Positions 13,066 through 63,210 of a stretch of DNA of 64,000 bases are shown piece by piece. The position numbers were made by a program, and so were the translations under genes. Positions within the stretch are counted from its first letter, which is position 1, and every line of letters begins with the position of its first letter. The DNA lies in assembly GCF_029227915.1 (NCBI RefSeq), contig NC_079888.1, positions 5,591,001 to 5,655,000 of the forward strand, given 5' to 3'. This DNA comes from Hydractinia symbiolongicarpus. Taxonomy: Eukaryota; Cnidaria; Hydrozoa; Anthoathecata; Hydractiniidae. The notes beneath the pieces are model-generated. The model saw only the letters and a program-made list of their open reading frames with translations, did no database searches and was not told the DNA's origin.

Positions 13066-13069
13066 AATG

Positions 13070-13232
13070 AAAAAGGTTTACAATACAGCAAGCTGCACTG
13101 AAGTATCTTGTCTACAGGGACAGTGGTTGTCAAAACTGGGATTAGCTCCCAGAAGAAGGTGCTGAATACACTTTCTTGCTTCTTACAAGCATGAGTACTG
13201 TCCAACTTGGACCTAAAACTATTCTTTAAGAA
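13070..13232 (+). repeat. Dispersed ~160-bp repeat, copy a
   Basis: Runs from AAAAAGGTTTACAATACAGC to the stretch after GTCCAACTTGGACC. It recurs with high identity at 19588-19747 and again, slightly shorter, at 19748-19895. No coding signature. GTCCAACTTGGAC is itself a near-perfect palindrome in each copy. The family could be the end of a larger transposon. Confidence 0.8.
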
Positions 13233-13380
13233 AATCGTAAAGAGAAAAAACAATCCTTCTATCACAAACAATACGACACAAGACAGAGCTAACAACATAA
13301 ACGGACTGGTTACAGATCAAACACAAATAGAAAAATGTATATGTCAAAAAATATATTAATATAAAAAAGAATTAAATAAG

Positions 13381-18934: not shown

Positions 18935-19587
18935 ATTTTGGTTGTTTTATTGAGTGGATTCTGCCACATCATTTAAATCAGTTGTGATATATCACATGAC
19001 AGAACAGCAGAAAAGAGGTACATAACCTGTATAAAACATTCAGCAGATTTTTAATTTATCCATTTTTTGTTGTTTACATTTTTTAATAAAACTATTTCTT
19101 GTACTAGTTGCTGATTTTTATGAACCGTTATAAAAGAATTGCAATGTCAACGAATTGTCAATGGTTGAAAAAAAGGTAATTATAGATTATACTTATAAAA
19201 AAAATGTACTGTTATCTAAAATTTTTTTTCAACTGTTCAGATGTAATGAATGATGTAAAGGGTATAAAGACAAATGTTTACGGGCCGAAATATATTTCCA
19301 CTTTGTTTTAAGTTGGAAGGTAGTCTGCTAGTTTTGGATAATGCGGAGGATATTAAAAAGAAATAGTTATTCGCAGTACAGGAGAAAAGGCTACTTCTAA
19401 TAAAAAGGTAATAACATTAAAAAGACAGAATTGAATTGGTTTATGTGTTTAAGCTCTGTTGTTAATGTTTTTTCCAATTTGTTTTTAGTTAGAAAATTAC
19501 TCCGCCAGTTTTCGATGTAAAAAAATTGAAAAAAAGTCCAGATTTATTACTGACAACGCATTTTATTTTGATATGCCACTCCTGTGA
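18935..19587. other. No gene seen
   Basis: AT-rich, no supportable exon or repeat. Confidence 0.45.
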
Positions 19588-19895
19588 AAAAGGTTTACAA
19601 TACAGCAAGCTGCACTGAAGTATCTTGTCTACAGGGACGGTGGATGTAAATAAAATTGGGATTAGGCTCCCAGAAGAAGGTACTGAATACACTTTCTTGC
19701 TTATTACAAGCATGACTACTGTCCAACTTGGACCTTAGCTATTCTCGTAGCAAGCTGCTCTGAAGTATCTTGTCTACAGGAACGGTGAATGTAAATATAA
19801 TTGGGATTAGGCTCCCAAAAGAAGGTACTGAATACACTTTTTTTCTTATAACAAGCATGAGTACTGTCCAACTTGGACCTTAGCTATTCTCGTAT
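19588..19895 (+). repeat. Dispersed ~150-bp repeat, copies b and c in tandem
   Basis: Two head-to-tail copies (about 19588-19747 and 19748-19895) of the repeat at 13070-13232, both ending in CCAACTTGGACC and then TTAGCTATTCTCGTA. Copy c lacks the first 15-20 bases. Copies b and c share changes against copy a (for example ATTAGGCTCCCA against ATTAGCTCCCA), so the tandem pair arose locally. Confidence 0.85.
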
Positions 19896-20410: not shown

Positions 20411-20611
20411 AGGAGTACACCAAGGCAGATATAACTAGAAATTTTAATAAAGAAAAGAGGTTTCACTTCAAAGAATAAGAAGCCACTGGAGAGATTCTGT
20501 ATTCTCCCCTTTACAGGGATGATTGAAAAGCTAATGAATTTCGGTTGTACTGAAACAAACACCTATGAATGTGAAAACATGAGGATTGGTAATTTCACTA
20601 ATGCTTGGTCG

Positions 20612-20774
20612 AGAGGTTTTCCTCCTCTAAAGAATATGCTCATTAAGAACATAATTCTTCTTTTTTCCAATTAGATAATTGGCACAAAAGTTGAACAAAC
20701 AAACAGAGAGAGTAGGGCAGGACTTCTGTAAACGGTGCAAGGGCTTCGACTCATATTCCTGAACCAAGGTTTTG
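20612..20774 (-). repeat. Inverted copy of the element's 3' end
   Basis: The reverse complement matches 25430-25605 (GTACCTTGGTTCAGGA, then CTTTACAGAAGTCCTG, then CCTACTCTCTCTG, then GAGCATATTCTTTA). Inside an otherwise matching direct-repeat block it replaces the ~55 bases found at 24027-24083 of the second copy, so it looks inserted. It gives the element apparent inverted termini about 4.7 kb apart. Confidence 0.85.
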
Positions 20775-21593
20775 TTAAACGTTGAGAAATGAAGAGTCGA
20801 CAACTACATATCGTATCGTTGTTGCTTTAACCTACCGAGCCAGAGCCCAGGGCTAAGAAAGGTGGACTTGGAATCCACCCCTTAGAAAGGCTGTGACAAA
20901 GAGTGAAAAGCAGCAAACCTGGAAACAGAAAAGCTTTGTGACCTTAGACATCATTTAACTTCTGATTCGCAAGTGAAAAACCCTCTTTTAAATTCAAAAC
21001 AGCTGGATTTAGGAGAATATCAAACAAAGGTTAATTAAAGCAGTTTGTAAAGAACGCACACAATATTTATTATTATAAAACAATTCATACGCTTGCGAAT
21101 GAATTAGACTGTTTACAACTTATTATTTTAGATGTTTTTACAGTGAAAAAGTCGAAACGTCGTTGCTAAAACATCCGAGCTGGATATGTTAGATGAACCC
21201 GTCAGCACTAAAACAGAAAAGCGGCCAAAATTTACGTATCAAGTGCCTGATTGCGGAATGTTTGTCCATTTGCATTATAACGTCGTTTTTAGGAGCTAAG
21301 ATTATGATTTTGTTCTTTGGTATTTGCCAGTTGTATATCCCAAAAAGAGGTAACATTAATTATCTGTTCTGAATCTTTCGTGTCACCTTCCTAATTATAT
21401 AGAATAAATCAATTGTTTTTTATCACTACCTTTTGGCAACGCTTCATTGTTAAAAGTCCTGAAATTACGTACTTTCTTTTCAATCTTTTCCAATCTTGTT
21501 GAAAGAATTTCTTTAATTCTGTTCAGTAGAGGGTCGCTTAAGAAATTTATATCCCTAAAACAAGCCTCCATCTCCATCATATATTAACGACTT

Positions 21594-22555
21594 TCGGCAA
21601 ATAGCTCTCCTCAATGTGGAAGGAAAATTTTTTTCAGTCTTGTGTCAAAGCGCCTAGAAAACCGCATCATTCAGAAAAACCACTTTATTAACAAAGCCAT
21701 TCAAAAAGGATGTATGGAAAAAGTCCCTGGTTGCTGGGAGCATATGTCCACTATCTGCATAAATCCACTATCTGCAATATGGCATGATGTAGCGAATGCG
21801 TATCCCACTCTACCGCATAAACTCATTTTTATGGCCCTTCGTTGCTATGGTGTTTCAGAGTCTTGGATAAGGCTTAAGACCTACTATGGCAGCCTCTGGA
21901 GCAAGACATTCACTTTTACAGCCTCATCCAGCTGGCACCAACACTTTAGAGGTATTTTTATTGGATGTACATTATCAATCATACTATTTTTGGCAGTTAT
22001 AAATGTAAATATGTGTGCGCCAAAGAAGAGTGAAAAAGTTGTGTTCTGCCTGACGATTTAGACCATCCTCCGGTTAAGGCCTTTATGGATGACATATTTT
22101 TAATGTCTTCAAGTGTCCCTCGAACTCAGAACTTGTTGGATCGTTGTGTAACAGCCCTTCATTGGGCTGGAATGGGCTTTAGACCTTCAAAATCACGAAG
22201 CATTGTTATAGCTAATGGAAAAGTTTTACATCAGTCTCCATTTTGTCTCCTGCAAGAACCAATCCCATCTATTCACGCGAACACAATTAAGTTTTTTGGC
22301 TGGATAATAAATTTAACATTGTCAGATTCAGCCCTTGTCCAACAGGTTATTGTTAACGCTGTAGAGCAAGTCAAACTCATAGATAATTCTTCCCATAGAG
22401 GCAATCACAAAGTGTGGTTTTTGCATCACCTAATTTCCCAAATACGATGGCCTTTTTTTAATTTAGGAAGTTCCGATATCTTGTATTGTTTCACTAGAAC
22501 AAAAGTTTTCTTTCTTCATAAGAAAGTGGCTGAGACTCCAACACTCTATTTATAA
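21594..22555 (+). pseudogene. Reverse transcriptase domain of the RT-USP element, copy 1
   Basis: RT that would copy the element RNA. The order is FRQIALLNVEGK (RT motif 1-2 region, about 21597), SKRLENRIIQ and the CMEKVPGCWEHMS block, LSAIWHDVANAYPTLPHKLI (palm motif A, with D in the ANAY block), SWHQHFRGIFIGCTLSIILF (motif B), KAFMDDIFLMSSS (motif C with an intact M-D-D pair at about 22085) and PSKSRSIVIANGK plus KFFGWIINLTLSD (motifs D-E). One frame break falls between motifs B and C (about 22000-22060), and part of the palm is rearranged near 21760. The GCTLSIILF and FMDD blocks identify an RT lineage common in aquatic invertebrate genomes. I do not assign a named clade. Confidence 0.82.
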
Positions 22556-22925
22556 CATAAGTTTGTATCCCACTTCATCGCCGTGCTCTCTAATTATAAA
22601 AAGTCTGTCCTCCGTACTAAAGTCTCCTAAGATCAGTGGTCATCTTCTCCTGCGAGATTCGGCTGACCCTCTAGTCTCATACTCTCCTCACGACTTAAAG
22701 GCTGGACACTGAAAGGTAGATCAGGCAGTAAAATCAGGAAAGAGTCATCTCGAGTTCAAGATAATACTTGGTTTCCACCAGTTAGGTATATCCTATAACC
22801 TTTATTTTAAATCCTATATCTTTTTTTATCCTCGAATATCGTTTTTTCCAGTTGGTAAACGTCTTCCCACCAAAAAGCGTTTAAACATTGACAGAATCCA
22901 TCACCTGGCCTCTGATTGGAGATTA

Positions 22926-23330
22926 TTGTCAGACTTAGATTCAACCTTAATAGTACCGCCTTATCTTGTTGTAGCTCAACTTCGTCCGGACATACTTTTA
23001 GAGAGAGAGAGAGAGAATAGCAGTAACTTGACCAAAACTGTAATTATCCTTGAATTAACTTGCCCATGCAAAGAGAACATAGAGACTTGGCATGGAGTCA
23101 AGTTTGATAAATACTTGTCACTTTGTTCCGTCATGAGATTAAACAATTGGTCTGTGCATTTTTTGCTGTTGAAGTAGGAGCTAAGGGATTTTGTTCCGAA
23201 ACAGTTAGAATCTGCCTCCTTCGCCTCAGCTTTTCAAACATGTCTGTGCGTTCCACTCTGAAATCTCCTACTGAGTCATCTATGCGATCGTCGTTTTACA
23301 TCTGGCTATCGCGAGGTTCTTTGTCTTGGA
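22926..23330 (+). pseudogene. Restriction-like endonuclease-type domain
   Basis: Downstream of RT, the protein has AQLRPDILLE followed, after a GA-rich insertion, by VIILELTCPCKENIE and VKFDKYLSLC. The P-D ... E-L-T ... K-x-x-K-Y arrangement matches the PD-(D/E)XK restriction-like endonuclease that some non-LTR retrotransposons use to nick target DNA. It continues with WSVHFLLLKVGAKGFCS and ends in SSFYIWLSR. A frame change lies near 23150. A GAGAGAGAGAGAGA run (about 23001-23014) falls between the PD and ELT parts and may be expanded. Assignment to the nuclease fold is by motif only. Confidence 0.6.
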
Positions 23331-23815
23331 TTAATCCTGGTAGGAATCCACAGCATACCGCTCAATTGATACCAACTGTTTTAAAGAAATCATTTAACTC
23401 ACAAGCAACTTCGACCACTAGTTTTAAGGACACGAATCCCCAGGGCGTAACAAAGAGCTCCACTACTTTGCCTGGACAAGAATCACTAGGCAGCAACAGC
23501 GGATTGCATATTTTGGGCAACGCATGTTACATCAATTGCATCTTGCAATGTTTTTATGTGTTACCCGCAGTCGCCACAGCAATCTCTGCAATAGATTCCA
23601 ATATGGCAATGGGTAAAAGTCTTGTAAGTATTCTACGCAAATTATCCTCCTCCAAGGTACCAGTGAACCCTTCTTCAGTTCTGAATGCATTAAAAGGGCC
23701 ATGTTTATAATGCAAGGGGCGATGCTTTTAATCCGTTCTTTCAGCTAGATGCCCTAGAGATTCTTGAGTATCTCACACCAGAGCTGTCCTTAGCCTTTCC
23801 TTTCTTTAGTAGAGA
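23123..23815 (+). pseudogene. Endonuclease tail fused in frame to USP (C19) Cys-box
   Basis: One open frame (23123-23707) runs from the end of the endonuclease-like region (FYIWLSRGS) through a Ser/Thr-rich linker of about 60 residues into LHILGNACYINCILQCF, the Cys-box of ubiquitin-specific proteases (consensus G-L-x-N-x-G-N-x-C-Y-x-N-x-x-x-Q-x-L). The catalytic Cys in GNACY is present. After a frame change at about 23707 the fold continues with LDALEILEYLTPEL, the usual Q-D-A-x-E-F-L helix, with L for the usual Q. It then runs into the repeat-bounded block at 23818. The shared frame is the direct evidence that nuclease and protease parts belonged to one protein. Confidence 0.7.
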
Positions 23816-23817
23816 AT

Positions 23818-24657
23818 AGGAGTAACTACACCGCAATGCAGATAAAATTAGTCTTTTAAGACAGAGATGTTACTGAAAGCATGGAGGTGTCTCTCCAAAG
23901 AATAAGAAGCCAATGGAAAACTTCTGTATTCTCACATTTACAGGGATGATCAAAAAGATAATGGATAGCGGTTGTACTGAAACAAACACCTATGAATGTG
24001 AAAACATGAGGATTGGTAATTTCACTCGCTTGGGATCTGGTGCGGTCCGATGAGTAAGCATCCCCGGCCTCCTGCAAGTTTGTTAAGCGTTAGAAAAAGA
24101 AGAGTCCACAACTACAAATCGTATCGTAGACTCGGAACCCAGGCCTTAGAAAGGTTGTGACAAAGAATGAAAAGCGGCAAACTTGGAAACAGAAAAGCTT
24201 TCTGACCACTTGTGAAATGCTATCGTAATGTTTGAGCTGACGAAGAAACCGCCCCTTAGAAAGGTAGACTTGAAACCCAGCAGCGGCATCACAGAAAACA
24301 ATTGCATATCGTCTCGAACTTAAACAAGTAATTCACTTTACCACCCAACTCAACTTTTACGCCTCAAAATCTGCCACGCTCTATTCTTTGGAAGGAGTTA
24401 TCAATCGTCTCGAGATTACAATTAAAGACCCATCTTAACCAACGAAGAACACACACTCTTCAGTCACCAAAAACAAAAAGCGTTCACGATCTATGGTCTT
24501 TCCCACCGTCAGTGGTGTTTCCCACAGTCACTAGTCTTTCCCAGTGTCAACCAGTTTTTCCTGGCAGTTAACTGGATCTGTGTAAGAAACAGGAAAGAGT
24601 ACAGGAGTAACTACACCGCAATGCAGATAAAACCAGACTTTTAAGACAGAGATGTTA
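23818..24657 (+). repeat. Insert bounded by 55-base direct repeats inside the USP domain
   Basis: The sequence from AGGAGTAACTACACCGCAATG to about AGAGATGTTA occurs at 23818-23872 and again at 24602-24657. A diverged third copy starts at 20412. Between them, 23875-24210 matches 20440-20950 (minus the inverted 3' end). USP coding sequence lies on both sides, so the block was inserted into, or expanded within, the protease gene. Direct repeats at both edges suggest recombination between copies or a small LTR-like (TRIM-like) structure. No coding content. Confidence 0.7.
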
Positions 24658-24689
24658 ATAAAAAATTCAACACTCGTGTGAAAATACGC

Positions 24690-25186
24690 AAGCACCTCTG
24701 AGCAAGTAAGTCTATTTCTTCAACTGCCCTCGACATCGGCTGTACCATCTTCCAATAGATAACTTTTTGGAGAGCGAAGAATTGTCAGGTGTCAACTCGT
24801 ACTTTTGTCACTACTGCAATAGTTACCAAACTGCAACAGTTGAAAAAGAGGTCGCAGAGTGCAGTTTAATTTTGGTTCTGCAATTAAAGCGCTTTGCCAA
24901 TAACAAAGGTGGTGTGTCTAAGGTTTGTTCTTCTGTCACATCTTACCCGGGCACTGTTTCTATACCTATCACTATAGACAGTGAAGTCTCTTGTCGCAAG
25001 CACTACAAGTTAAGGGCTGCAATTAACCACTCTGGAAATTTGAACAATGGCCATTACACTACTGTTGCTTATAACGAAGTGCATGGTAAGTGGTTTCATT
25101 GCAACGACAGAGCCGTGGTCCCTTGCAAACAATGCTTGCTCAATGGTGTACAACCTTACATCATTTTCCTTGAAGAGCTTAGGTAA
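24690..25186 (+). pseudogene. USP (C19) C-terminal half with His-box, copy 1
   Basis: The second half of the ubiquitin-specific protease fold. It starts in one frame (LFLQLPSTSAVPSS) and after a one-base shift continues as LESEELSGVNSYFCHYCNSY (zinc-binding C-x2-C), LILVLQLKRFANNKG (the conserved L-x-L-x-L-K-R-F strand), YKLRAAINHSGNLNNGHYTT (His-box with the catalytic His of GHYT) and KWFHCNDRAVVPC (the W-x-x-F/C-N-D strand with the third catalytic residue), ending VQPYIIFLEELR. Spacing is right for a USP. All catalytic positions survive across the two halves, but the gene is interrupted by the 23818-24657 block. Such enzymes remove ubiquitin from proteins; why a retroelement would carry one is unknown. 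Confidence 0.85.
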
Positions 25187-25620
25187 ATTGCAGGCAGCAC
25201 CACAACTTCCGGTTTATGTCAGCAAGGGGGGTTGACTATTCTTATTTATTTTATTTTTTTTGTAGATTGTAGTCTTATCTTTGGAGAGTGACGACTCTAC
25301 GTCTTACCCCAGTTACACAATTGTAGAGAGTAGGACAGATGAAAATTCATGGATGAAAGAAATGTTTAGTTGCTGCTGAAGACTGTTTGCAGACCTCTTT
25401 TAATGTGACTCAGCTGGACATTTTGGGTACCTTGGTTCAGGACTATGAGTTGAAATTCTTGTACCCTTTACAGAAGTCCTGTCCTACTCTCTCTGCCTGT
25501 TTGTTTGTTCAAATTTTGTGCCAATTATCTCCTTGGAAAAAGGAAGAATTGTGTTCTTTTAAATGAGCATATTCTTTATAGGAGCAAAACTTCTAGTATT
25601 TAAATTTTAAGACTTAACTG
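25187..25620 (+). other. 3' untranslated region of RT-USP element, copy 1
   Basis: Matches copy 2 in order: GTCAGCAAGGGGG, one unit containing ATCTTTGGAGAGTGACGACTC, then GTACCTTGGTTCAGGA and TTTACAGAAGTCCTG, ending near AATTTTAAGACTTAACT. Copy 2 has three of the TTTGGAGAGTGACG units. Confidence 0.8.
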
Positions 25621-25944
25621 GTAAAGTTTATCATTGTGCATGCACTTTGTAATTTGCTTTCTTCTCATTTAACCTAATTTTTCAGCAATAAAAAAGAATA
25701 GTATGGCTTCTATTTCTTCATGACTTTCCCCAAAGCACCTACACTTACCCAAAATTTCTTTATTATCTACAAAAATGATCTGTTGTGATAAGACGTCTGC
25801 TTGTTAGGAAAATGTGCGTAAGAGAATAGAAATAGAAAATGGAGTATTGACCGGCTTGATTAGATTTAAGTATTGTCTTAAACAAAGCGTGTTTTAAGGA
25901 AAATTCATACCATTTATATCTAAAATTTTTCCAGTAAGTCTCTT

Positions 25945-29554: not shown

Positions 29555-30145
29555 CACAACTTTCAGACATCGCCAATATTAAGCCAAAGTATTCATTAAT
29601 AAAATAATTCCACCTCTTTAAATTAGAAGGTGCCATCACATGGAAGTGAGATAAGCGATCTTACCTGTTTCAACACTACCTACCAAACAGAGAAAAAGAA
29701 AAAACGTTTTTAGGTCGAAAACGTCACGCAGATATTCTGTTAATGAGAATGCGAGAAAGGCATTTAAATTTAGCAGAGAAATAACAATTGTTTTAAGGAG
29801 CTTGTTAAGTTTGAGCTTGTTTGCAGGAGCTAAAAAGAAGGAAATAAATTTGTTTAAGTTTAGTAGATGCGCTAAGGGATCTAGATGAAAGAAAAAATAC
29901 ACTAGCACGTATCAACATCTGACAAATTTTGTTTGCCATAAAATTTATATTCAAAATCTTTGTTTTTGTTTACAATTGTATTTATATCAGGTACATGTTT
30001 GTTGTATGTATATATGTAAGAGAAAGATAAGGTTTCTTAAACATGAGATCGATATTATAGTTCGAGACCCTTCTTCCTTCATACCCTTCTTTACTAATAA
30101 AACAACTATTCTAGGAACGTTAGTTTCTTTTGTACGTCGAATGAG
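29555..30145. other. No gene seen
   Basis: No supportable exon. Upstream flank of retroelement copy 2. Confidence 0.4.
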
Positions 30146-30181
30146 GTCACAAAAAAAGAAGTTCCTGGTTGCTGGGAGCAT

Positions 30182-30830
30182 ATGTCTCTTGTCTGGGCTG
30201 CTCTAAGAAACGTTAAGTCTAGGAAAAATACTCTATCTGCAATATGGCTTGATGTGGGAAATGCGTATCCCACTATACCGCATAAACTCATTTTCATGGC
30301 CCTTCGTCGCTATGGTGTTTCAGAGTCTTGGATAAGGCTTATTAACACCTACTATGGCAGCCTCTGGGGCAAGTCATTCTCTTTTACAGCCTCATCCAGC
30401 TGGCACCAACACTTTAGAGGTATTTTTATTGGATGTACATTATCAATCATACTATTTTTAGCAGCTATAAATGTAATCATTAAATATGTGTGCGCCGAAG
30501 AAGAGTTAAAAAGTTGTGTTCCGCCTGACGATTTAGACCATCCTCCGGTTAAGGCCTTTATGGTTGACATATTTTTAATGTTTTCAAGTGTCCCTCGAAC
30601 TCAGAACTTGTTGGATCGTTGTGTAACAGCCCTTCATTGGGCTGGAATGGGCTTTAGACCTTCAAAATCACGAAGCCTTGTTATAGCTAATGGAAAAGTT
30701 TTACATCAGTCTCCATTTTGTCTCCTGCAAGAACCAATCCCATCTATTCACGCAAACCCAGTTAAGTTTTTTGGCTGGATAATAAATTCAACATTGTCAG
30801 ATTCAGCTCTTGTCCAACAGGTTTTTGGAG
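30182..30830 (+). pseudogene. Reverse transcriptase fragment, copy 2
   Basis: One open frame covers motif A (TLSAIWLDVGNAYPTIPHKL), motif B (FRGIFIGCTLSIILFLA) and motif C, which is FMVDIFLM here: one base change (GAT to GTT) replaces the first Asp of the MDD pair, so this copy would be catalytically dead even if expressed. Motifs D-E follow (GFRPSKSRSL, VKFFGWIINS). The part before motif A that copy 1 retains is mostly missing. It is better preserved in frame than copy 1, and helps define the family's sequence. Confidence 0.85.
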
Positions 30831-31244
30831 AGCGAAGAATTGTTAGGTGTCAACTCGTACTTCTGTCACTACTGCAATAGTTACCAAACTGCAACGGTTG
30901 AAAAAGAGGTCGCAGAGTGCAGTTCAATTTTGGTTCTGCAATTAAAGCGCTTTACCTATCACAAAGTTCTTGTGTCTAAGGTTTGTTCTCCTGTCACATC
31001 TTACCCGGGCACTGTTTCTATACCTATCACTGTAGACAGTGATGTCTCTTGTCGCAAGCACTACAACTTAAGGGCTGTAATTAACCACTCTGGAAATTTG
31101 AACAATAGCCATTACACTACTGTTGCTTATAACCAAGTGCATGGTAAGTGGTTTCATTGCAACGACAGAGCCGTGGTCCCTTGCAAACAAAGCTTGCTCA
31201 ATGGTGTACAACCTTACATCCTTTTCCTTGAAGAGCTTAGGTAA
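30825..31244 (+). pseudogene. USP (C19) C-terminal half with His-box, copy 2
   Basis: Near-identical to 24767-25186: FLESEELLGVNSYFCHYC (zinc-binding pair), LVLQLKRFTYHK, LRAVINHSGNLNNSHYTTVA (His-box, with S for G before the His) and WFHCNDRAVVPCK. It is open to its stop at 31242-31244. The Cys-box half is deleted, so no protease activity is possible. The open frame starts in the other frame from the RT, so no RT-USP fusion protein is made across the deletion joint. Confidence 0.85.
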
Positions 31245-31640
31245 ATTGCAGTCAGCAGCACAACTTCCGGCTTATGTCAACAAGGGGGTTTGACTATTCT
31301 TATATTTTTTTTATTATTGTTATTTTTATTTATTTATTTATTTTTTGTAGTCTTGTCTTTGGAGAGTGACGACTCCACTTACTACCCCAGTCAAAATAAA
31401 AGCGAAAAACAAAAAAAATTACGCCAGCAAGGGTGTTTGACTGTACCAGGTCCTATCTTTGGAGAGTGACGACTCCACTTATTATCCCAGCCAAAAAGGA
31501 AAAAACAAAAAAAACAAAAAAACAAAAAACAAAATAAACAAAATAAAAATTATGTCAGCAAAGGGGGTTTGACTGCACTGGTCTTATCTTTGGAGAGTAA
31601 ACGACTCCACTTCTTACCCCAGTCACACAAGATTGTACAG
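31245..31640 (+). repeat. Tandem units in the 3' UTR of copy 2
   Basis: The block GTCAGCAAGGGGGTTTGACT ... CTTTGGAGAGTGACGACTCCACTT ... CCCAGTCAAA occurs three times (GGAGAG at 31361, 31461 and 31592), with A-rich spacers expanded to different lengths. Copy 1 has a single unit. Confidence 0.85.
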
Positions 31641-31939
31641 AGTAAGACAGATGAAAAGTTATGGATGAAAGAAATGTCTAGTTCCTGCTAAAGACTGTTC
31701 GCAGACCTCTTATGAGGTGACTCAGCTAGACATTTTGGGTACCTTGGTTCAGGAATATGAGTGGAAACCTTTGTACCCTTTACAGAAGTCCTGCCCTACT
31801 CGCTCTGTCTGTTTTTTTGTTTAATTTTTTTGCCAATTACCTCCTTGAAAAAAGGAAGAATTGTGTTTCTTTATATGAGCATATTCTTTAGAGGAGCAAA
31901 ACCTCTAGAATTTAAATTTTAAGACTTAACTTTTTCTGA

Positions 31940-38770: not shown

Positions 38771-38880
38771 CTGGCGACGAGGAGAAGGGAACAACAGACG
38801 AAGATTAAATTCGACAAGATTAAATTCGACAAGATTTAATTCTTATCTGTGAAGTAATTTTAAATTTTTATGCACTTGCG

Positions 38881-39890
38881 ATGGCTGTTCGAAATCTTAA
38901 TCTGCCAACCTTTCCAGAGTTTTTCACAGAAGATGTGTCTACACTCAGTTCGCGCTGGAAGAAGTATAAACAAAGATTTGAACTTTTGTGTCACGCTATT
39001 GGTGTATGAAATATATGAAAATGTTAAGCCTGAACGCGAAGAAGATGTAACATATCCGAATGTCATCGCGGCGTTAGAAAAACACTTCGAACCACAAGTA
39101 AATAAAAGTTACGAAACATATTTATTTCGCAATATAATACAGCAGGAAGATGAAACGATACATCAGTATTTTATACGATTAAAAGAACAAGCAGTAAAAT
39201 GTGACTTTCACGATAAAAATTTGGAAATCAAAAGACAGGTTGAACTTTCTACTACTAACAACAAGTTACGTTTATATAGCTTCAGAAATCCTGATAAAAC
39301 CTTGGAAGAAATACTGGTGACAGGAAAGACTTTAGAAAGCAACATACAGCAAGCAGAAGTTCTTCAAAAAACACAGGCGAACGATACAGAGCGAATCAAC
39401 GAATTGCGGTCGGTTTACACCGACCGCCGAGGTAAGCCACATTCTTTAAACCAACGAGGAATGAGTAAAAGAGGCCGACCTCAAAATGCTAAATGTTATC
39501 GTTGTGATGGACCATTTCCCCATCAAAACAGATGCCCTGCTGAAAACCAAATTTGTAACGCATGTGGAAACCAGGGTCACTTTTCAAAATGTTGTAGAAC
39601 CAAAACATATCGACATCAAAACACCCGAGCACGTCTGAAGAGGGGATCCTTTTACCAATCACGACAGCCCTTGAATAACGTTACTCATTCGCCGTTAAAC
39701 GATTTTTCTGCTATGCAAAATACCCTTGAAGCTGAAAGTGATGATGAAATGTTATTTTCTATCCAAACTTTGTATAATTGTGAACATCCTATGATTAGTA
39801 CTGTGTCTTATTCGTCTGATGTTGTGAATTCTCCATTCGATAGCACAGAAAACACAAGTAACAGTAACCACAGTTATAAGAATAGTAAGC
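38881..39890 (+). pseudogene. Gag of gypsy element 1
   Basis: Starts at ATG 38881 (MAVRNLNLPTFPEFF, then RWKKYKQRFELLCHAIG) and meets a stop at about 39007. The homology goes on in another frame with YEIYENVKPERE, ALEKHFEPQVNKS and RNIIQQEDETIHQYFIRLKE, the usual capsid-type gypsy Gag. About 20 residues seem deleted at the frame change. The nucleocapsid part at about 39495-39600 has two Cys clusters: CYRCDGPFPHQNRC and CNACGNQGHFSKCC, a C-x2-C-x4-H-x4-C knuckle. Gag would package element RNA. It is broken by the early stop. Confidence 0.85.
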
Positions 39891-39894
39891 AAAA

Positions 39895-42800
39895 TTCTGA
39901 TTTCAATACTGTTGTTAAATTAGAAGGAGGAAAAGTAAATTTTCTAGTCGATACAGGAGCTAGCATTAACATTCTCACATTGCGTACTTTCAATCAGTTA
40001 ACACGAACGCCTTCCAAAAAAATTAAATATACTCAAAACAAAAACAAGCGTCGCAACGTACGGAAGTGACACTTCAAATTTGAAAGTTTTAGGACGCGTT
40101 AATCTCTTAGTAGAAACCACCTCTAAAATGATTAACGCGCCATTTTTCGTGATCGACACTTCCCATAAAAACCTATTATCAGGCCGACCAGCAGTTGATC
40201 TTGACGTCATTCAGATGAAGAAACAAGTTTTTTCTTTACAAAATCAGCGAAGCATGCAGCCAAACTACAAAGCACCTGATATACTAAAATCAAAAGAAAA
40301 CATTCCAACACACCTCCGCAGAGTTTTAGAAAGTTATAAAGATACCGTGTTCAGTGAGAAAATCGGAAAATTGGAGGACTATCAAGTGCATCTTCACATA
40401 GATAACAACGTACCACCAGTAGCGCAAAAAGAAAGACGCATACCTTTTGCTTTACGAAAGCGAGTCAATGCAGAAATCGCCAAAATGGAGAAAGCAGGCA
40501 TAATAGAAGATGTCACAAACGAAGCGACGCCATGGTTAAATCCGCTAGTTATTGTTCCCAAACCCGAGGGAGGAGTACGAATTTGTCTCGATATGAGAGA
40601 AGCAAACAAGGCTTTTAACCGAACAAGATATCCAACCCCCACCGTAGAGGATTTAAAAATCAAGCTAAGTGACTCAAATGTATTTACCAAGTTAGACATG
40701 CGAAGTGCTTTTCATCAACTGGAATTATCCGAAGATTCACGACCTATCACCGCTTTCCCATCCGAAACTCGAATAAAACGTTACACCCGCCTGATTTTTG
40801 GCGTGAACTCCGCGTCGGAAGAAATGCAACATGTGCTTAGATCCTTAATAGCAGACATCAATGGAGTTGAAAATATTGCGGACGTTTTATTTATATTCGC
40901 ACAATCTCAAGAAAAGCACGACGTTATTTTAAGGTGTTAAAACGTTGCGAAGAGAAAGGACTCACATTGAACCTGGAAAAATGTGTATTCTGCAAAGGCA
41001 ATTTAGAATTTTTTGGGCATGTCTTCTCAGAAGAAGGTATGAAACCAAGCCCAAAGAAAATTGAAACCATTACAAACATGCCTCAACCCGAAGATGTCAA
41101 GTCACTTGGAAGCTTTTTGGGACTCACCAACTACATGCAAACATACATACTGGACTACAGTACAATAACTTATCCACTTAGACAATTGATCAAAGAGAAA
41201 GCCGAATGGAAATGGACATCCGAATGTGAACATGCCTTTGCTACTTTGAAAAGCGCATTGAGTAGTGAATCCTGCTTAGCATATTTTGATGAAAACAAAG
41301 AGACATTTATGTTTACAGACGCTAGCCCATATGGTATATCCGCCGTATTGTTGCAGAAAAGCAAGGGTGAAGATGATGTTAAGGTTATATCTTATTCATC
41401 CAAATCCCTCACAGAAACTGAAATGAAATATGCACAAATCGAAAGAGAATGTTTAAGCATCGTTTACGGATGCGAAAAAAATCGCTTGTACTTAATCGGT
41501 AGAGAGTTCACCATATTCAACGACCATAAAGCATTAGTCAATCTCTTAAATAACCCAAAATCCACGATACCTCTGCGAATCGAGCGACTAACACTTCGAC
41601 TTCAAGGTTACAACTTCATAATAAAACATGTAAAGAGTGCAGAAAACATATCAGATTACGCTAGCAGACACCCTCACACCTTCAGCGACGACAAAAAAAG
41701 CAACGGTATGGAAGAATATGTAAACTTTACAGCCACATATGCGTGTCCAAAAGCGGTTACCCTAGACGATATTAAAACACAAACTTCACAAGATAAAATA
41801 TGTCAACATCTAGCCAGTATTATAGAAAAGAACAACTGGCACCTACTAGACAAACCGACTAACTACGCTGATTTAAGTAGCAAAGAACTAGACGAGCTGA
41901 AGCATTACCGCAAGTTCAAACACGAACTCACCGTATCGAACAACAAAGACATTGTCTTAAAACAAAGACGCATTATCTTACCAAAATGCTACCATAACAT
42001 TGCTGTTACATTAGCTCATCAAGGACACCAAGGTGTTCAGAAAACAAAAGAGTTACTCAGATCGAAATTTTATTTTCAAGGAATAGACGATATGGTTGAA
42101 AAGAAAATTCCATGCCAAGCTGTTACACCAACAAGAGCAGATGCGCCTATGAGAATGATGGATATACCAGAACAAGTTTGGGAAACTTTGAACATTGATT
42201 TTCTTGGACCATTTCCCACAGGATACTACCTATTTGTCGTGATCGACCAAAGATCTAAGTTTCCAGAGGTGGAATTTCTCAAGAGTACCAAAGCTGAAAC
42301 ACTGATACCTTGTTTAGATAGAATGTTCAGCACATACGGTAATCCACGCAACGTTATCTCCGATAATGGCCCATCATTCAGCTCGCAGAAAATCAAATCT
42401 TACTTCAAACAAAGGGGGATAAAACACAGACGCATCACTCCACTATGGCCACAGGCAAACGCAGAAGCAGAACGATTTATGCAACCGCTTAATAAAATAA
42501 TGAGGACAGCTAAACTAGAACACAAGGATTGGAGGGAAGAAGTTTATAGATTCTTATTTGCTTACCGCTCCACACCTCATAGTACCACCAAAGTTGCCCC
42601 CTCAGAACTGATGTTCAATAGAAAAATTAGTTACTCAATACCATCAATAGACAACAAACTAACATACGAAAACCAGCAACAAATAGCCACTGACAATGAC
42701 AAAGCGGCCAAAATAAAGAACAAACAGTACGCAGATGAACGTCGACATACGAAAGAACCATCGTTATGTGAAGGAGACCGTGTCATTGTCAAGCAACTGA

Positions 42801-43117
42801 AGTACAATAAGCTTTCCACTCCTTACAGCATACAACCCTACAGAGTTACGAAAATAAATGACACAATGGTTACCGCTCAATCGGAAATTGACTCATCCAA
42901 CATCACAAGAAATATTTCTCATTTTAAAAGTATCCCGACAACTGCATCAACTCCTATCATTGTAAAGGAGGAGGAAGACATCGCCATAGAGCCACAACTT
43001 CCAGTATCGCAACCCGCAAACAAACCTCCATTCAGAAACTATACATCGCCCAACCAAAATCGCAAAATTTATCCCACCAGATCAAGAAGACCAGTTCACC
43101 AGTGGAGGAAATACTGA
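39895..43117 (+). pseudogene. Pol of gypsy element 1 (protease, RT, RNase H, integrase)
   Basis: In order: aspartic protease (VNFLVDTGASINIL, about 39935); RT (RICLDMREANKAFNRTRYPT, then FTKLDMRSAFHQLEL, about 40580-40730); RNase H (FMFTDASPYGISAVLLQ, then AQIERECLSIVYG); integrase with HQGHQGVQKTKELL and a core with the first D in LNIDFLGPF, the second in ISDNGPSF and the E in NAEAERF. Frame breaks lie near 40043 (protease/RT) and 40920 (RT). The RT Y-x-D-D box has become IADVLFIF, losing the second Asp. The integrase zinc finger has only one of its two Cys (KKIPCQAV). The last frame is open for 727 codons (40934-43117). No chromodomain. Confidence 0.9.
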
Positions 43118-57110: not shown

Positions 57111-57157
57111 ATCAACAAAATGTTGTCACCCTGGTTAGGGTCACAACATAAAATAAA

Positions 57158-57664
57158 ATGTCAAGTGCGTTAGATAATGCAGCTAAAAACGGTCACATCG
57201 AGATTGTCAAGCTGTGCAAAGAGTGGGGTGCGACATACTTTAATAGGGCTCTATATAATGCAGCTGTCAATGGTCACATCGAGATTGTTAAACTGTGCAA
57301 AGAATGGGGTGCGACATACTTTGATTTGGTTTTAGAAAATGCAGTTAAAAATGGTCACATCGAGATTGTTAAGCTGTGCAAAGAGTGGGGTGTGACAGAC
57401 TTTGATTGGGCTCTAGAAAGTGCAGCTGTCAATGGTCACATCGAGATTGTTAAACTGTGCAAAGAATGGGGTGCGACATACTTTGATTTGGTTTTAGAAA
57501 ATGCAGTTAAAAATGGTCACATCGAGATTGTTAAGCTGTGCAAAGAGTGGGGTGTGACAGACTTTGATTGGGCTCTAGAAAGTGCAGCTCTCAAAGGTCA
57601 CATCGAGATTGTTAGACTGTGTAAAGGACATATGTATGCACATATGTATGAAAGAATTTTATGA
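57158..57664 (+). CDS. Ankyrin-type repeat protein of a Polinton-like element
   Basis: 168 residues from ATG 57158, made of six 27-residue units with the core NGHIEIVKLCKEWGAT (81-bp DNA period: the GGTCACATC word lies at 57191, 57272, 57353, 57434, 57515 and 57596). Units 3-4 and 5-6 are near-identical 162-bp pairs, so the array grew by two-unit duplication. Repeats with this KEWGAT core, shorter than the usual 33-residue ankyrin, occur in large DNA viruses and Polinton-like elements; role there unknown. The final unit loses the pattern (VRLCKGHMYAHMYERIL), because the DNA there is already the PolB reading frame, one frame over. It is open, but probably a truncated end joined to PolB by deletion. 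Confidence 0.7.
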   Translation: MSSALDNAAKNGHIEIVKLCKEWGATYFNRALYNAAVNGHIEIVKLCKEWGATYFDLVLENAVKNGHIEIVKLCKEWGVTDFDWALESAAVNGHIEIVKLCKEWGATYFDLVLENAVKNGHIEIVKLCKEWGVTDFDWALESAALKGHIEIVRLCKGHMYAHMYERIL

Positions 57665-58642
57665 AAAAGATAACATCAAGGTTAGAGATCACTGTCACTA
57701 TACAGGAAAATATCGAGGACCTGCGCATCAAATATGCAACTTTCGTTTTAAAACTCCATCCTACATCCCAATCGTCCTCCATAATCTTAGCGGATATGAT
57801 GCGCATCTATTTATCAAAGAATTAGCCAAACAGTATAGAGATGAAAAGATTACCGTCATCTCTGAAGACAAAAAGAAATACATCTCTTTCTGATTGGATG
57901 TTAAGGTTGGTGAATATGTGAAGAAAGGCGAGAAAAAGGACATCAAGATACAATTGAGATTTATTGATTCAGTTCGTTTCATGGCTAGTAGCCTGGATAA
58001 GTTGGTAAACAATCTATCTGATGATCAGTGTAAAAATCTTCGAAAATTCTTCAAGGGTGATGAGCAATTCAAACTATTGAGAAGAAAAGGAGTTTATCCA
58101 TATGAATACGTTGATTCTTTCGATAAGTTCAATGAAACTAAGCTCCCGGCAAAAGATGCTTTTTACAGCAAGTTGAACATGAGCGGCATCAGTGATGCTG
58201 ATTATGCGCATGCGCCGATGGTGTGGAAATACATGAAAATCAAAAATATGGGTGTGTATGATGATATCTACCTCAAAACAGACGTTCTATTGCTTGCTGA
58301 TGTTTTTAAGACGTTCAGGGGAAACATGCCTAAAACATTATCAACTGGATCCTGCACATTTTTACACTGCTCCTGGGTTAGCTTGGCAAGCAAAGAAAAA
58401 GACCGAGATTAAGCTAGATTTGTTGCATGATATGGATATGTTTCTGTTTATGGAAAAAGGTATTAGAGGAGGTCTCACTCAGGCTGTTCATAGACATGCT
58501 AAAGCTAACAACAAATATATGGGTGTTCAATATAAGACGACCGAAGAGACCAGCTATCTCCAGTATCTTGACGCAAACAATCTGTATGGATGATTCAAAA
58601 ATTAATAACTAAAAAGTTCAAGTGGGTTAATGATCCTAATAA
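57630..58642 (+). pseudogene. Polinton/Maverick-type DNA polymerase B, 5' part
   Basis: Protein-primed PolB that would replicate a Polinton/Maverick (adintovirus-like) element. Visible in order: a Cys/His block (VRDHCHYTGKYRGPAHQIC), an exonuclease motif (LHNLSGYDAHLFIKELA), a FIDSVRFMASSLDKLV segment, TDVLLLADVF, APGLAWQA and polymerase motif A (YLDANNLYG). The N-terminal few hundred residues are missing. Disruptions: TGA at 57891, frame change near 58318, and TGA with frame change at 58591. Past motif A the frame still reads FKWVNDPNKFT to about 58642, where gypsy sequence starts. Transposition of old viral-type DNA; non-functional. Confidence 0.88.
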
Positions 58643-58780: not shown

Positions 58781-59200
58781 CAACAACAACATCAAGATAA
58801 CAATGAAGATGATTCATTCCACATCAGCACAATAGATGCCAAACCAGACTCAAAAGCCTTTATTGTCAACACCATATCAACAGACACATGGAGCATCGAC
58901 CTATTGGCTAACAACACAAATATGCAATTCAAAATTGACACTGGGGCTCAGGTGAATATGATATCTGATAAAACGTACAAACAGCTGTTGAAACGCCCAA
59001 CAATGAAAGAATCGTCAATCAAGCTGACAGCATATAATGGATCTGAAATTCCTGTAACAGGACAATGTCTACTAAATGTTCGATATGCTGATAGGGTCTA
59101 CCCATTGTTATTTATTATTGTCGGCACTGACTCTGCTTCAATACTTGGACTTAAAGCAAGTGAAAGATTGAATTTAATCTAACGAATTCATGAAATTTAT
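58781..59200 (+). pseudogene. Aspartic protease region of gypsy element 2
   Basis: MQFKIDTGAQVNMIS carries the D-T-G-A active-site motif of retroviral-type proteases. It is followed by KLTAYNGSEIPVTGQCLLNV and ends near ILGLKASERLNLI, the usual protease C-terminal segment (I-L-G-L). The frame closes at 59180, just before the RT frame, so protease and RT are no longer joined. Confidence 0.85.
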
Positions 59201-59224
59201 ATTCCCGACAATGACATTTTAGAA

Positions 59225-60577
59225 ATGTTTGACGACTGCTTTGATGAAATTGGCACGTTGCCAAAAGTACATCACATCACTGTTGATAAACACGTTACTC
59301 CGACTGTCCATGCAGCAAGGAAGATTCCAATCGCGTTAAGAGACAAACTCAAAGTAGAACTCGATCGTATGATACACTTGGACATTATAGAGCCAATCAC
59401 AGAACCAACAGAATGGGTAAGCCAACTAGTGATCGTAGAGAAATCAAATGGTAAGCTAAGGATATGTCTTGACCCAAGAGACTTAAACAAAGCCATTAAG
59501 AGGCATCACTATAACCTACCTACAGCTGAAGAACTGTTCGCAGAAATGACAGGTGCTCAATACTTCACAAAACTTGATGCAAGCAATGGTTACTGGCAAA
59601 TAAAAGTTGATGATGAATCTTCGAAATTACTTACATTTTCAACTCCGTTTGGCAGATATCGTTTTAAGCGTCTTCCATTTGGAATCCATAGAGCGAGTGA
59701 AGTATTTCAACAAAATATTGCTGAGATAATTGAAGGATGTCATGGCTCACGAAATAGCCAAGTTGACATTATTATATGGGGCTCAACAAAAGAAGAGTTA
59801 AGTAATCGAACTGTGAAGGTTTTAGAGAAAGTGAGAAATTCTGGACTTAAACTGAACAAGTCAAAGTGCATCATTGGTGCTGAATCTGTTACATTCCTTG
59901 GTCACAAAATCTCTACAAGCGGTGTTTCTCCAGACCCTGCAAAGGTAAAAGCCATCAATGACATTCCACAACCAACATGTAAAGGAGATCTACAACGTTT
60001 TCTTGGTGTGACCGCTTATCTTGCTAAATTCATCCCCAATATATCAAACGAAACTTCAATGTTACAAGACCTTTTAAAAAATGAAACAGTATGGGACTTC
60101 ACAAGCCATCACCTTGAGCAATTTAATAATATCAAATCTTTAATAAGCAGAGACATTTCTTTGAAATTCTTTGACCCAAAACTGCCTACAAAAATCACAT
60201 GCGATTCTTCAAAATATGGATTGGGTGCAACCCTTGAACAGCAGCATCACAATGGTTGGCAACCCATAGCATTGAAGTCACGATCATGCACGAATGCCGA
60301 ACAACACTATAGCACACTGGAAAGAGAAACACTTGCAATAGTGTTTGGATGTACTACATTCCATGAATATTTGTATGGTCGAACATTTTCAGTTGACAGC
60401 GATCATAAATCATTAAAAAGCATTTTTAAATACAACATTAACAGTGCACCAACTCGCATACAAAGATTTTTGTTGCAGCTGCAGAAAGACGATTTCACAG
60501 TTAATTACGTTCCTGGAAAAGAATTAATAATTTCAGACACTCTTAGTCGTGCACCATCGAAAATTCAAGTTGCTTGA
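59225..60577 (+). pseudogene. Reverse transcriptase and RNase H of gypsy element 2
   Basis: Open for 450 codons. RT blocks: KLRICLDPRDLNKAI, FTKLDASNGYWQIKVDD (with the first catalytic D), FSTPFGRYRFKRLPFGIHRA and FLGHKISTSG. The Y-x-D-D box reads SQVDIIIWG, so the first Asp of the pair is Val and the enzyme should be inactive. RNase H: KITCDSSKYGLGATL, LERETLAIVFG and SDHKSLKSIF, ending VPGKELIISDTLSRAP. A frame break at about 60560 separates it from the integrase. Confidence 0.9.
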
Positions 60578-61925
60578 GATTTGCGAACATGAAATCATCG
60601 CTCAAGTTGATTCTGTTATCTCAAGTCTACCAATTAGTGACAACAAATTAAAACTCATTCAAGAGGAAACATCTGCTGACAACACAATGCAAGAACTTTG
60701 TCGGACCATATTTAATGGTTGGCCATCTAATCGGTCATGTGTAACGAATGAACTCAAACCATATTTCAACCATCGCCATGAACTTAGTGTTGTCAATGGT
60801 ATCATAATGAAAGGAACTCGTATTGTCATTCCTCTCTCACTCAGACCTGAAATGAAGCGCATTCTTCACATTGGACATCTTAGAATAGAGCGAACAAAAA
60901 TCAAATAGAAGACATGATTAGTAGTTGTGACACATGCCAAATATTTCGAAATAAACAATGCAAAGAGACTTTGATTCAGCATGAGGTTCCTAGTGAGGCC
61001 TGGGTGAAGGTGGGTACTGATCTCTTTACTCTCTTTAATAAACTCTTTCTTGTCATCGTAGATTACACTAGCAAATATTTCGAAGTGGTTCAACTTCCTA
61101 ATGGCAAAGCATCAACCGTCATCAATTTTACGAAAGGCATATTTTCCCGTCATGGAATTTCAGCCGAAGTTGTTAGCGATAATGGGCCACAATACTCGTC
61201 ATTCGAATTTAAACGTTTTGCAAGACAATGGGATTTCAAGCATACAACTTCCAGCCCTAAGTTCCCACAAAGCAACAGCCTGGTGGAAAGGACGATACAA
61301 ACAATAAAACGAACATTTCGAAAATGCAAATCTGATGGTTCTGATCCTCACCTCGCGCTATTGGCATTGCGTACCTCAGTCAATAGTGCTAACTCGTCTG
61401 CTGCTTACTCACTCATGAAACGGAACCTACGAACATTGATTCCAACTGTGAATTCAACAAAAAGTCAATATGACAAACATATTTGAGATTTACCAGCATT
61501 GCACATTGGTCAAAAGATTCTATCAAGGAAAGAATTGGGATCGTCTTGGCCAAGTCATGCAGACACATAAAACTCCACGGTCATATATACTTCGAACTGA
61601 CAAGGATACAACGATCCGTCGTAACCGTCGTGATTTACTTCCATCGAAATCTGAGTTCAAATTGGTCAATGAGAATCATGACGACGAAGAATCAGGCACC
61701 ATGCAAGAATGCCAACATGGTGAAGAAAACGAATACCCACATGGTGAAGAAAACGAATGCCAACGTGGTGAAGAAAACGAAGGTCAACTTGATGAAGAAA
61801 ACGGAAAAGAAGAGAGAAGAAACAACGAAAAAATAGAATTCAAAGATACTGTATCAATGACCGAACCATATAGAACTCGAAGTGGTCGACAAGTTAGAAA
61901 ACCAGAGCGATTTCGAAAAGACTGA
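60560..61925 (+). pseudogene. Integrase and C-terminal tail of gypsy element 2
   Basis: The zinc finger is split: HIGHLRIERTKIK lies in one frame and CDTCQIFRNK in the next after a stop at 60906. The core has D in VGTDLF, D in VVSDNGPQYSS and E in SLVERTIQTIKR, so all three catalytic residues are present. A further break lies near 61480. The tail contains a 24-base, four-copy repeat (HGEENEC or RGEENEG units, about 61711-61805) before the basic C-terminus (RTRSGRQVRKPERFRKD), a usual ending of this lineage. Confidence 0.85.
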
Positions 61926-62212: not shown

Positions 62213-63210
62213 CGAATGGAGATTAATGGGGTCGAAAAGCTAACTCCATGCCTTTCTGACAGAAAAAAATTATGTTATTCACATCCGTGCGCTTGATCAA
62301 GCGTTGAAACATGGTCTTGTTCTTGATAAGGTTCATAGGGTGATAGAATTTGAACAAAGCGCATGGTTGAAACCGTATATCGATTTTAACACCGATTTGC
62401 GTACAAAATCAAAGAACGACTTCGAGAAAGATTTTTTCAAGCTGATGAATAATTCGGTCTTTGGTAAAACTATGGAAAACCAACGTATACACAAAGACAT
62501 ACGCTTGGCTACCAAGAAACAACAATATGAGAAACTAGTGATGAAGCCCAACTTCAAAGGCAGCATCTGTTTCTCAGAAACACTGATGGGTGTTGAAATG
62601 CAGAAAATCAAAGTCGTGTTGAACAAGCCAATCTATCTAGGACCTGCAATTCTCGACTTGTCTAAGATAGTTATGTATGAGTTCCACTACGACTATATGA
62701 GACTAAAATATGCTGACAATCTAAAGCTTTGCCACATGGACACAGATTCATTCGTTTATCATATCAAAACCGACCACTTCTACAAAGATATCGCTGACGA
62801 TGTAGCTTTGAGATTTGACAATTCAGGATATGACAAGAAAGATAACAGACCTTTACCCATAGGTTTGAATAAAAAGGTCATCGGTCTAATGAAAGATGAG
62901 TTAGGGGGTAAGATAATGAGGGAGTTTGTCGATCTTAGAGCAAAGACTTATACGCATAAACAGTTAGACGGAACAGAGGACAAAAAGTGTAAGGGAGTAA
63001 AGAAAACCATGGGGTTTGACGATTATAAGAGATGCTTGCTTGTTCGATGGTGTGAACATTTACAGGGAGCAGATGACCTTCCGATCGATTAAACATGATG
63101 TTCACACCATAAAAACAAACAAACTCGCTTTCACTGCAGATGATGACAAAAGAATTATCCATAATGATGGAATAAGCACCTATGCGCGAGGACACTATAA
63201 GGCTACATAA
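62213..63210 (+). pseudogene. Polinton/Maverick-type DNA polymerase B, 3' part
   Basis: Continues the gene cut at 58642. MEINGVEKLTPCLSD opens it. An extra A in the run at about 62272 shifts the frame. Then come VHRVIEFEQSAWLKPYIDFN, FFKLMNNSVFGKTMEN (polymerase motif B, K-x-x-x-N-S-x-F-G) and LCHMDTDSFVYHI (motif C with the D-T-D catalytic pair). A second frame change near 63035 is followed by LFDGVNIYREQMTFRSIKHD and the normal C-terminus GISTYARGHYKAT with stop at 63208. Motifs B and C are intact, but with motif A upstream of the retroelement no polymerase can be made. Confidence 0.9.

Follow-up and report, generated by a model that had tools for sequence, protein, structure and literature searches.

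What does a deubiquitinase do behind the nuclease of a retrotransposon? The question is raised by a 64,000-nucleotide stretch of the hydrozoan Hydractinia symbiolongicarpus (NCBI RefSeq assembly GCF_029227915.1, contig NC_079888.1, positions 5,591,001 to 5,655,000 of the forward strand), hereafter the window, in which a damaged element of the long interspersed nuclear element (LINE) type carries a reverse transcriptase (RT), a restriction-like endonuclease (RLE) and a ubiquitin-specific protease (USP, peptidase family C19) one behind the other. A preliminary description of the window had proposed that these parts belong to one protein, had pointed to a second copy with the same order, and had suggested a search for intact copies in which one open reading frame (ORF) covers all three domains; copies in which the RT-RLE part ends before the USP, or USPs with unrelated flanks, would have spoken for a chance insertion. 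Judged from its sequence, the element is a non-LTR (long terminal repeat) retrotransposon of the RLE kind with the domain order of R2, to which a complete USP has been added at the C-terminus.

Architecture of the intact element

The search covered one genome (481 Mb in 76 contigs), for which the best 149 of 1015 candidate matches to the Pfam model UCH were scored; many of these lie within long unbroken frames. The intact copies that had been suggested as a test do exist: among 20 regions picked for long frames, an unbroken 1426-aa frame is present in six, and four more contain frames of 1423, 1422, 1379 and 1345 aa. They describe an element with several subfamilies (the labels A–F are our own), in which a single frame, some 1,420 aa long, encodes the RT, a CCHC knuckle, the RLE, a linker and a complete USP, and the single ORF across RT, RLE and USP is present in all six unbroken copies. 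Since five of the 1426-aa copies share 99.4–99.7% DNA identity with the sixth (L013) over the unit, the family is young.

Pfam assigns residues 339–609 of the 1426-aa protein to RVT_1 (E = 8e-16) and residues 1137–1423 to UCH (E = 5e-32), with zf-RVT at 828–892 remaining sub-threshold, and NCBIfam gave no match. The UCH model is complete (1–254) in three element proteins and covered from 2 to 253 in a fourth. The first 1125 residues run along the R2 chains 9nl2, 9nl3 and 9dou (best E = 3e-19, from the RT), and these chains stop 16–25 residues past the last aligned RLE residue. RT, CCHC knuckle and RLE thereby follow one another in a single ORF in the R2 order, as in the R2/NeSL/HERO/CRE/R4 group of RLE-type elements, the CCHC and RLE stretches being weak alone (2–4 bits) and counted for standing in the expected order. 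The USP that follows aligns to USP8, USP15 and USP2 (E down to 1e-23) with the Cys and His boxes in register. Relatives of the element were not confirmed in prokaryote genome contigs or viral contigs.

Linkage of RLE and USP across the genome

Whether the USP is a fixed part of the element was assessed from RLE sites gathered by RLE queries alone, in two lists comprising the best 150 of 424 and the best 150 of 635 candidates; distant RLE elements without a USP may exist beyond these lists. Among all checked sites, 138 of 143 carry a USP at least in part. In subfamily A, a downstream USP accompanies 28 of the 29 RLE sites with at least 96% identity, among the listed matches and fetched regions: 25 have a listed UCH match, with a spacing of exactly 138 nt in 21 of them, and of the remaining four, three have a USP and the fourth ends abruptly behind the linker. 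Subfamily C is represented by 129 listed RLE sites at 75% identity or above, 98 of which were checked and 95 of these have a USP; 78 show a listed USP 88–546 nt downstream (57 within 170–206 nt), and from the 51 unmatched sites the first 20 in list order were fetched, yielding a USP, often frame-broken, in 17. The same list holds 21 sites below 75% identity, and a USP is listed for six of them. The remaining 15 comprise four fetched sites, three of which have a USP, copy 1 of the window, and ten sites left unchecked.

Divergent sites gave a similar result. Sixteen RLE sites 47–72% identical to subfamily A, including the four just mentioned, were selected, for having no listed UCH match, out of about 120 rows of lower identity, and 15 of them carry the USP at least in part, reduced to its first few dozen residues in L060 and L064 and to its later part in L062, L063 and L067. 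The 40 downstream regions fetched in total contained a USP in part or more in 35 cases, the others being L030, L036, L042, L052 and L068. As a control, 5 of 150 listed RLE sites had a USP upstream on the same strand, and 1 of 150 had one on the opposite strand within 3 kb. Conversely, an upstream RLE is listed for 87 of 145 USP rows. The order and near-constant spacing of RLE and USP recur on twelve contigs. The proposal that the two are no chance neighbours is thus upheld, and the attempt to refute it through copies whose RT-RLE part ends before the USP, or whose USP has unrelated flanks, produced five USP-less sites among the 143, two of which (L052 and L068) carry stops.

Match coordinates on C2 (about 32.2–36.4 Mb) and C7 (about 22.0–22.2 and 32.6–32.7 Mb) are mirrored on opposite strands, a pattern suggestive of large inverted duplications or of an artefact in the assembly; the copy counts contain doubles of this sort.

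Conservation and selection

An alignment was made of ten USP domains representing six subfamilies. In all ten, the catalytic His and the Asn/Asp before DR are present, as is an Asn ahead of the Cys box, and the Q(Q/H)D block is found in 9/10, the first zinc-ribbon Cys pair in 9/10 and the second in 10/10, even though USP identity between subfamilies is 32–56% and synonymous change is near saturation. Along the A–B pair, the only one covered by the linker alignment, identity amounts to 70% in the RT and 56% in the RLE, reaches its lowest value with 25% in the linker, and rises again to 45% in the USP; constraint is thus relaxed across the linker and regained behind it.

Ratios of nonsynonymous to synonymous change (dN/dS) were obtained for 12 USP stretches from eight less distant pairs. 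In the seven with measurable dS (1.4–2.0) the ratio is 0.11–0.19, the other five being saturated, and in the four of eight RLE stretches that could be measured it is 0.05–0.13. On this comparative evidence, the USP domain has been kept under purifying selection. RLE and USP identities, compared over the 15 subfamily pairs, correlate with r = 0.89, a value equalled by 4 of 720 permutations. This parallel divergence points to a USP gain older than the subfamily split and fits a single capture before it. The donor is not obvious: L001 carries a USP with no RLE within 1.5 kb, taken as a host gene, and its identity to the element USPs is 24–39% over fragments.

Mode of copying

In subfamily A, 15 of the 16 listed 3′ ends coincide to within a few bases (L010, among these 15, being a tandem junction), and L020 ends about 90 bases short. 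The copies have no poly(A) tail, their flanks differ and their 5′ ends fall at many points. A fixed 3′ end, 5′ truncation and the lack of LTRs form the pattern that target-primed reverse transcription would, as far as sequence can tell, be expected to leave. In 14 copies, target site duplications did not exceed chance, and a weak T preference was seen across 15 3′ flanks (one a tandem junction). A single fixed target such as 28S rDNA is not indicated, as the subfamily-A 3′ flanks differ, although 28S itself was not searched.

At seven subfamily-A loci (L009, L010, L012, L013, L014, L017 and L023), eight units were seen to reach the 5′ end, and ahead of each stands, in head-to-tail orientation, the 3′ section of a different copy (some 0.1 to 2.4 kb long, once a full unit), with one junction shared. 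Template jumping by the RT could explain this tandem arrangement, as could transcription off a tandem template. Template jumping is a trait of the R2 RT, and tandem-template transcription has been proposed for a Penelope-like element in PMC11167929. At L024 and L028, inverted element stretches lie at or near the 5′ junction and resemble self-primed second-strand products. No hammerhead ribozyme was matched at E 0.5 in four loci, and Rfam gave no ribozyme match at gathering score in the window; L027 gave only a sub-threshold Twister-P5.

Copies within the window

Neither copy in the window is whole; the complete architecture described above was read from copies elsewhere in the genome. Copy 1 lies on the plus strand. 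Its RT and thumb region (21452–22787), identified by tblastn with the intact 1426-aa protein L012, is spread over several broken frames with 44–61% aa identity to L012 residues 306–771; RVT_1 reaches E = 4e-4 for 22034–22552, under the Pfam cut-off. The RLE follows at 22833–23330, from the ELTCP block to FYIWLSR, with one frame change near 23160–23190; it shares 68% (22833–23192) and 85% (23159–23437) aa identity with the sister copy L066, and in the intact protein the region aligns in order with the RLE of R2. The preliminary description had the end of the nuclease run on in frame into a USP Cys box, and a single open frame (23111–23710, 199 aa) does contain the RLE C-terminus, the linker (23331–23500) and the Cys box GNACYIN. 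The N-terminal USP half (23501–23813) shares 76–83% aa identity with the subfamily E USP, and its UCH match (E = 4.2e-5) falls just under the cut-off with 23.7 against 23.9 bits.

The His box NNGHYTT and the third catalytic strand CNDRAV were correctly placed further downstream, in a C-terminal half (24691–25186) that also contains a zinc-ribbon Cys pair; what had been missed is that an insert of about 850 bp, foreign to the element and bounded by 68-bp direct repeats (23811–24663, assigned to neither strand), splits the USP. This half is 83% identical to the subfamily E USP at the aa level, and its stretch 24710–25186 matches UCH (E = 1.1e-15) and PDB chains of USP11 and USP15 (E about 1e-12). 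It is followed by a 3′ untranslated region (25187–25668) common to copy 2 and L003. The insert has related sequence at 20437–20599 and 20862–20943, so that 23811–24663 and 20437–20943 represent a repeated short element. Within it, 24495–24561 corresponds, on the minus strand, to the 5′ region of subfamily A, and window positions 20612–20770 are the reverse complement of the copy 1 3′ region; because of these reversed matches, the short element may be a non-autonomous relative.

Copy 2, also on the plus strand, is 94% identical to copy 1 in DNA over 30226–30827 and 89–94% across the overlapping parts. It consists of an RT (30101–30823; RVT_1 E = 5.3e-10) whose frame stays open to about 30820, a C-terminal USP half (30816–31244; UCH E = 5.6e-18) with 90% aa identity to residues 145–283 of the subfamily E USP, and a 3′ untranslated region (31245–31931). 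The order RT then USP His half was as first described; its His box reads NNSHYTT, and the two parts are fused by a deletion joining at about 30820 that removed the RLE, the linker and the Cys box.

Subfamily-A 3′ ends (92–97% identical, minus strand) also occur at 13067–13372, 19585–19744 and 19749–19889, the latter two in tandem with a period of about 145 bp. Frames at 38864–43117 and 59183–61486 are presumably Gypsy-like Gag/Pol, a label taken from frame reading alone, and 57152–58412 and 62244–63092 hold Ankyrin-like repeats and two pieces that we take to resemble a Polinton-type DNA polymerase B; the Polinton-like pieces are apparently interrupted by the Gypsy-like element.

Discussion

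Taken jointly, the architecture, the selection on the USP and an active USP domain are, on the sequence comparisons above, probable. Several observations weigh against this reading. The RLE has no significant match by itself (none in Pfam, 2–4 bits in the R2 alignments), and its identity therefore rests on collinearity and a motif. The catalytic Cys is likewise present in 10/10 aligned USPs, in domains that had been located by a Cys-box pattern, all ten loci being strong UCH matches. Between subfamilies dS is mostly saturated, and several loci show quicker divergence of the USP than of the RLE (48% against 76% identity at L053), so that the USP appears constrained, though less than the RLE. 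Close pairs within subfamilies show dN/dS of 0.38–0.85 on few changes, as expected for copies decaying after insertion, and lend no support to selection. Moreover, 58 of the 145 USP rows have no listed RLE upstream, which may be 5′-truncated copies or have RLEs outside the best-150 list. Finally, some sites are duplication copies rather than independent insertions (e.g. C2:32.69 Mb and C2:35.63 Mb), and because they copy one insertion within duplicated stretches, independent events are fewer than the site counts.

We infer that the USP is an active deubiquitinase working in cis, carried together with RT and RLE to the insertion site. Fused to the protein that brings the element RNA to its target, it could act on the ribonucleoprotein (RNP) or on ubiquitinated proteins nearby. 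Our first choice, held tentatively, is that it would strip ubiquitin off its own RNP and delay proteasomal turnover, in keeping with the escape from ubiquitin-mediated turnover suggested in the preliminary description; a second choice, somewhat less favoured and likewise possible, is that it would deubiquitinate chromatin or repair proteins where the target has been nicked, allowing the insertion to be completed.

A different role would be that of a processing protease that cuts its own polyprotein, for example in the variable linker, or frees an effector, with deubiquitination being incidental. The linker, at 25% identity between A and B, is what a cleavable or flexible spacer could look like, and other kinds of retroelement are generally known to mature by proteases. 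However, the zinc-ribbon Cys pairs (9/10 and 10/10), the Q(Q/H)D block (9/10) and the Asn before the Cys box (10/10), which we take to be the features by which USPs hold ubiquitin, have been kept, pointing to ubiquitin as the substrate and making a processing role improbable. Still less plausible, and in our view very unlikely, is a captured domain that hitchhikes passively and is open only through the youth of the copies. As the best copies are 99.4–99.7% identical, intact frames alone are no proof of selection, and the few changes within subfamilies (dN/dS 0.38–0.85) would suit such a passenger; against it stand catalytic residues kept across six subfamilies at 32–56% identity and near-saturated synonymous change, dN/dS of 0.11–0.19 in 7 of 12 stretches, and divergence in parallel with the RLE. 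Chance nesting of a USP pseudogene or host exon beside an RT, later duplicated, would suit the broken window copies with their split USP, but is hardly credible given an order and near-constant spacing shared by twelve contigs, with unbroken frames and, where read, unrelated flanks. A mere chance neighbour was rejected on the intact copies and the near-constant RLE–USP spacing.

The deubiquitinase acting in cis thus remains the preferred role, and we lean, with some reserve, towards a distinct and long-lived lineage of RLE LINEs that made one capture of a cellular USP and would depend on the tethered active deubiquitinase to edit its RNP or the target chromatin.

Among known systems, R2 (PDB 9nl2, 9nl3, 9dou (R2Tg) and 8gh6) shares with the element an RT, a CCHC linker and a C-terminal RLE in one ORF, and 5′ truncations with a fixed 3′ end that fit target-primed reverse transcription. 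Unlike R2, the element has a USP of about 290 aa behind the RLE and no fixed target site. The N-terminal C2H2 zinc finger and Myb domain of the R2 clade gave no Pfam match at E 0.1, a threshold that divergent fingers could escape.

Added cysteine proteases of the ubiquitin/SUMO sphere occur in other RLE-type LINEs: NeSL and one Utopia family, from nematodes, carry a Ulp1-like protease at the N-terminus according to PMC4640811, whereas that of the present element is C-terminal and of the C19/USP family. No Ulp1-type protease was matched at E 0.1 in the element proteins. Dualen/RandI LINEs carry an OTU protease, and resemble the element in pairing an RLE with a cysteine protease of deubiquitinase type, albeit one of a different family from the USP. 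According to PMC4640811, Dualen has an apurinic/apyrimidinic endonuclease (APE) besides the RLE. Neither APE nor OTU was matched at E 0.1 in three element proteins of at least 1379 aa.

Ubiquitin/SUMO proteases are also borne by DNA transposons, which differ in having no RT: in PMC2836005, Ginger1, Mutator and Helitron bear OTU or Ulp1 and a Trichomonas Transposase_11 protein carries a peptidase C19, and the OTU/Ulp1 domains on transposases are suggested to influence repair during transposition. Penelope-like elements, as described in PMC11167929, share the tandem or partial-tandem copies, with pseudo-LTRs; the canonical Penelope/Poseidon ones possess a GIY-YIG endonuclease, and a hammerhead motif is present in the one from Anolis. 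GIY-YIG had no match at E 0.1 in the element proteins.

The preliminary description could name no LINE with a C19/USP domain behind the nuclease, and we likewise found no RT or LINE protein with USP/C19 in the open-access literature on mobile-element proteases, which leaves out most subscription journals. An RLE LINE with a C19/USP, and the C-terminal position of its protease, are therefore likely undescribed so far; if true, no retroelement with a C19 domain would have been described before.

The element ties retroelement copying to the cellular ubiquitin system within one protein. As the USP is fused to an RT and a nuclease whose relative R2 has solved structures, its role is testable, and the existence of young unbroken copies allows the protein to be studied in its natural form. 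That several unrelated mobile elements have gained Ulp1, OTU and C19 domains suggests that the control of transposition through ubiquitin may be general.

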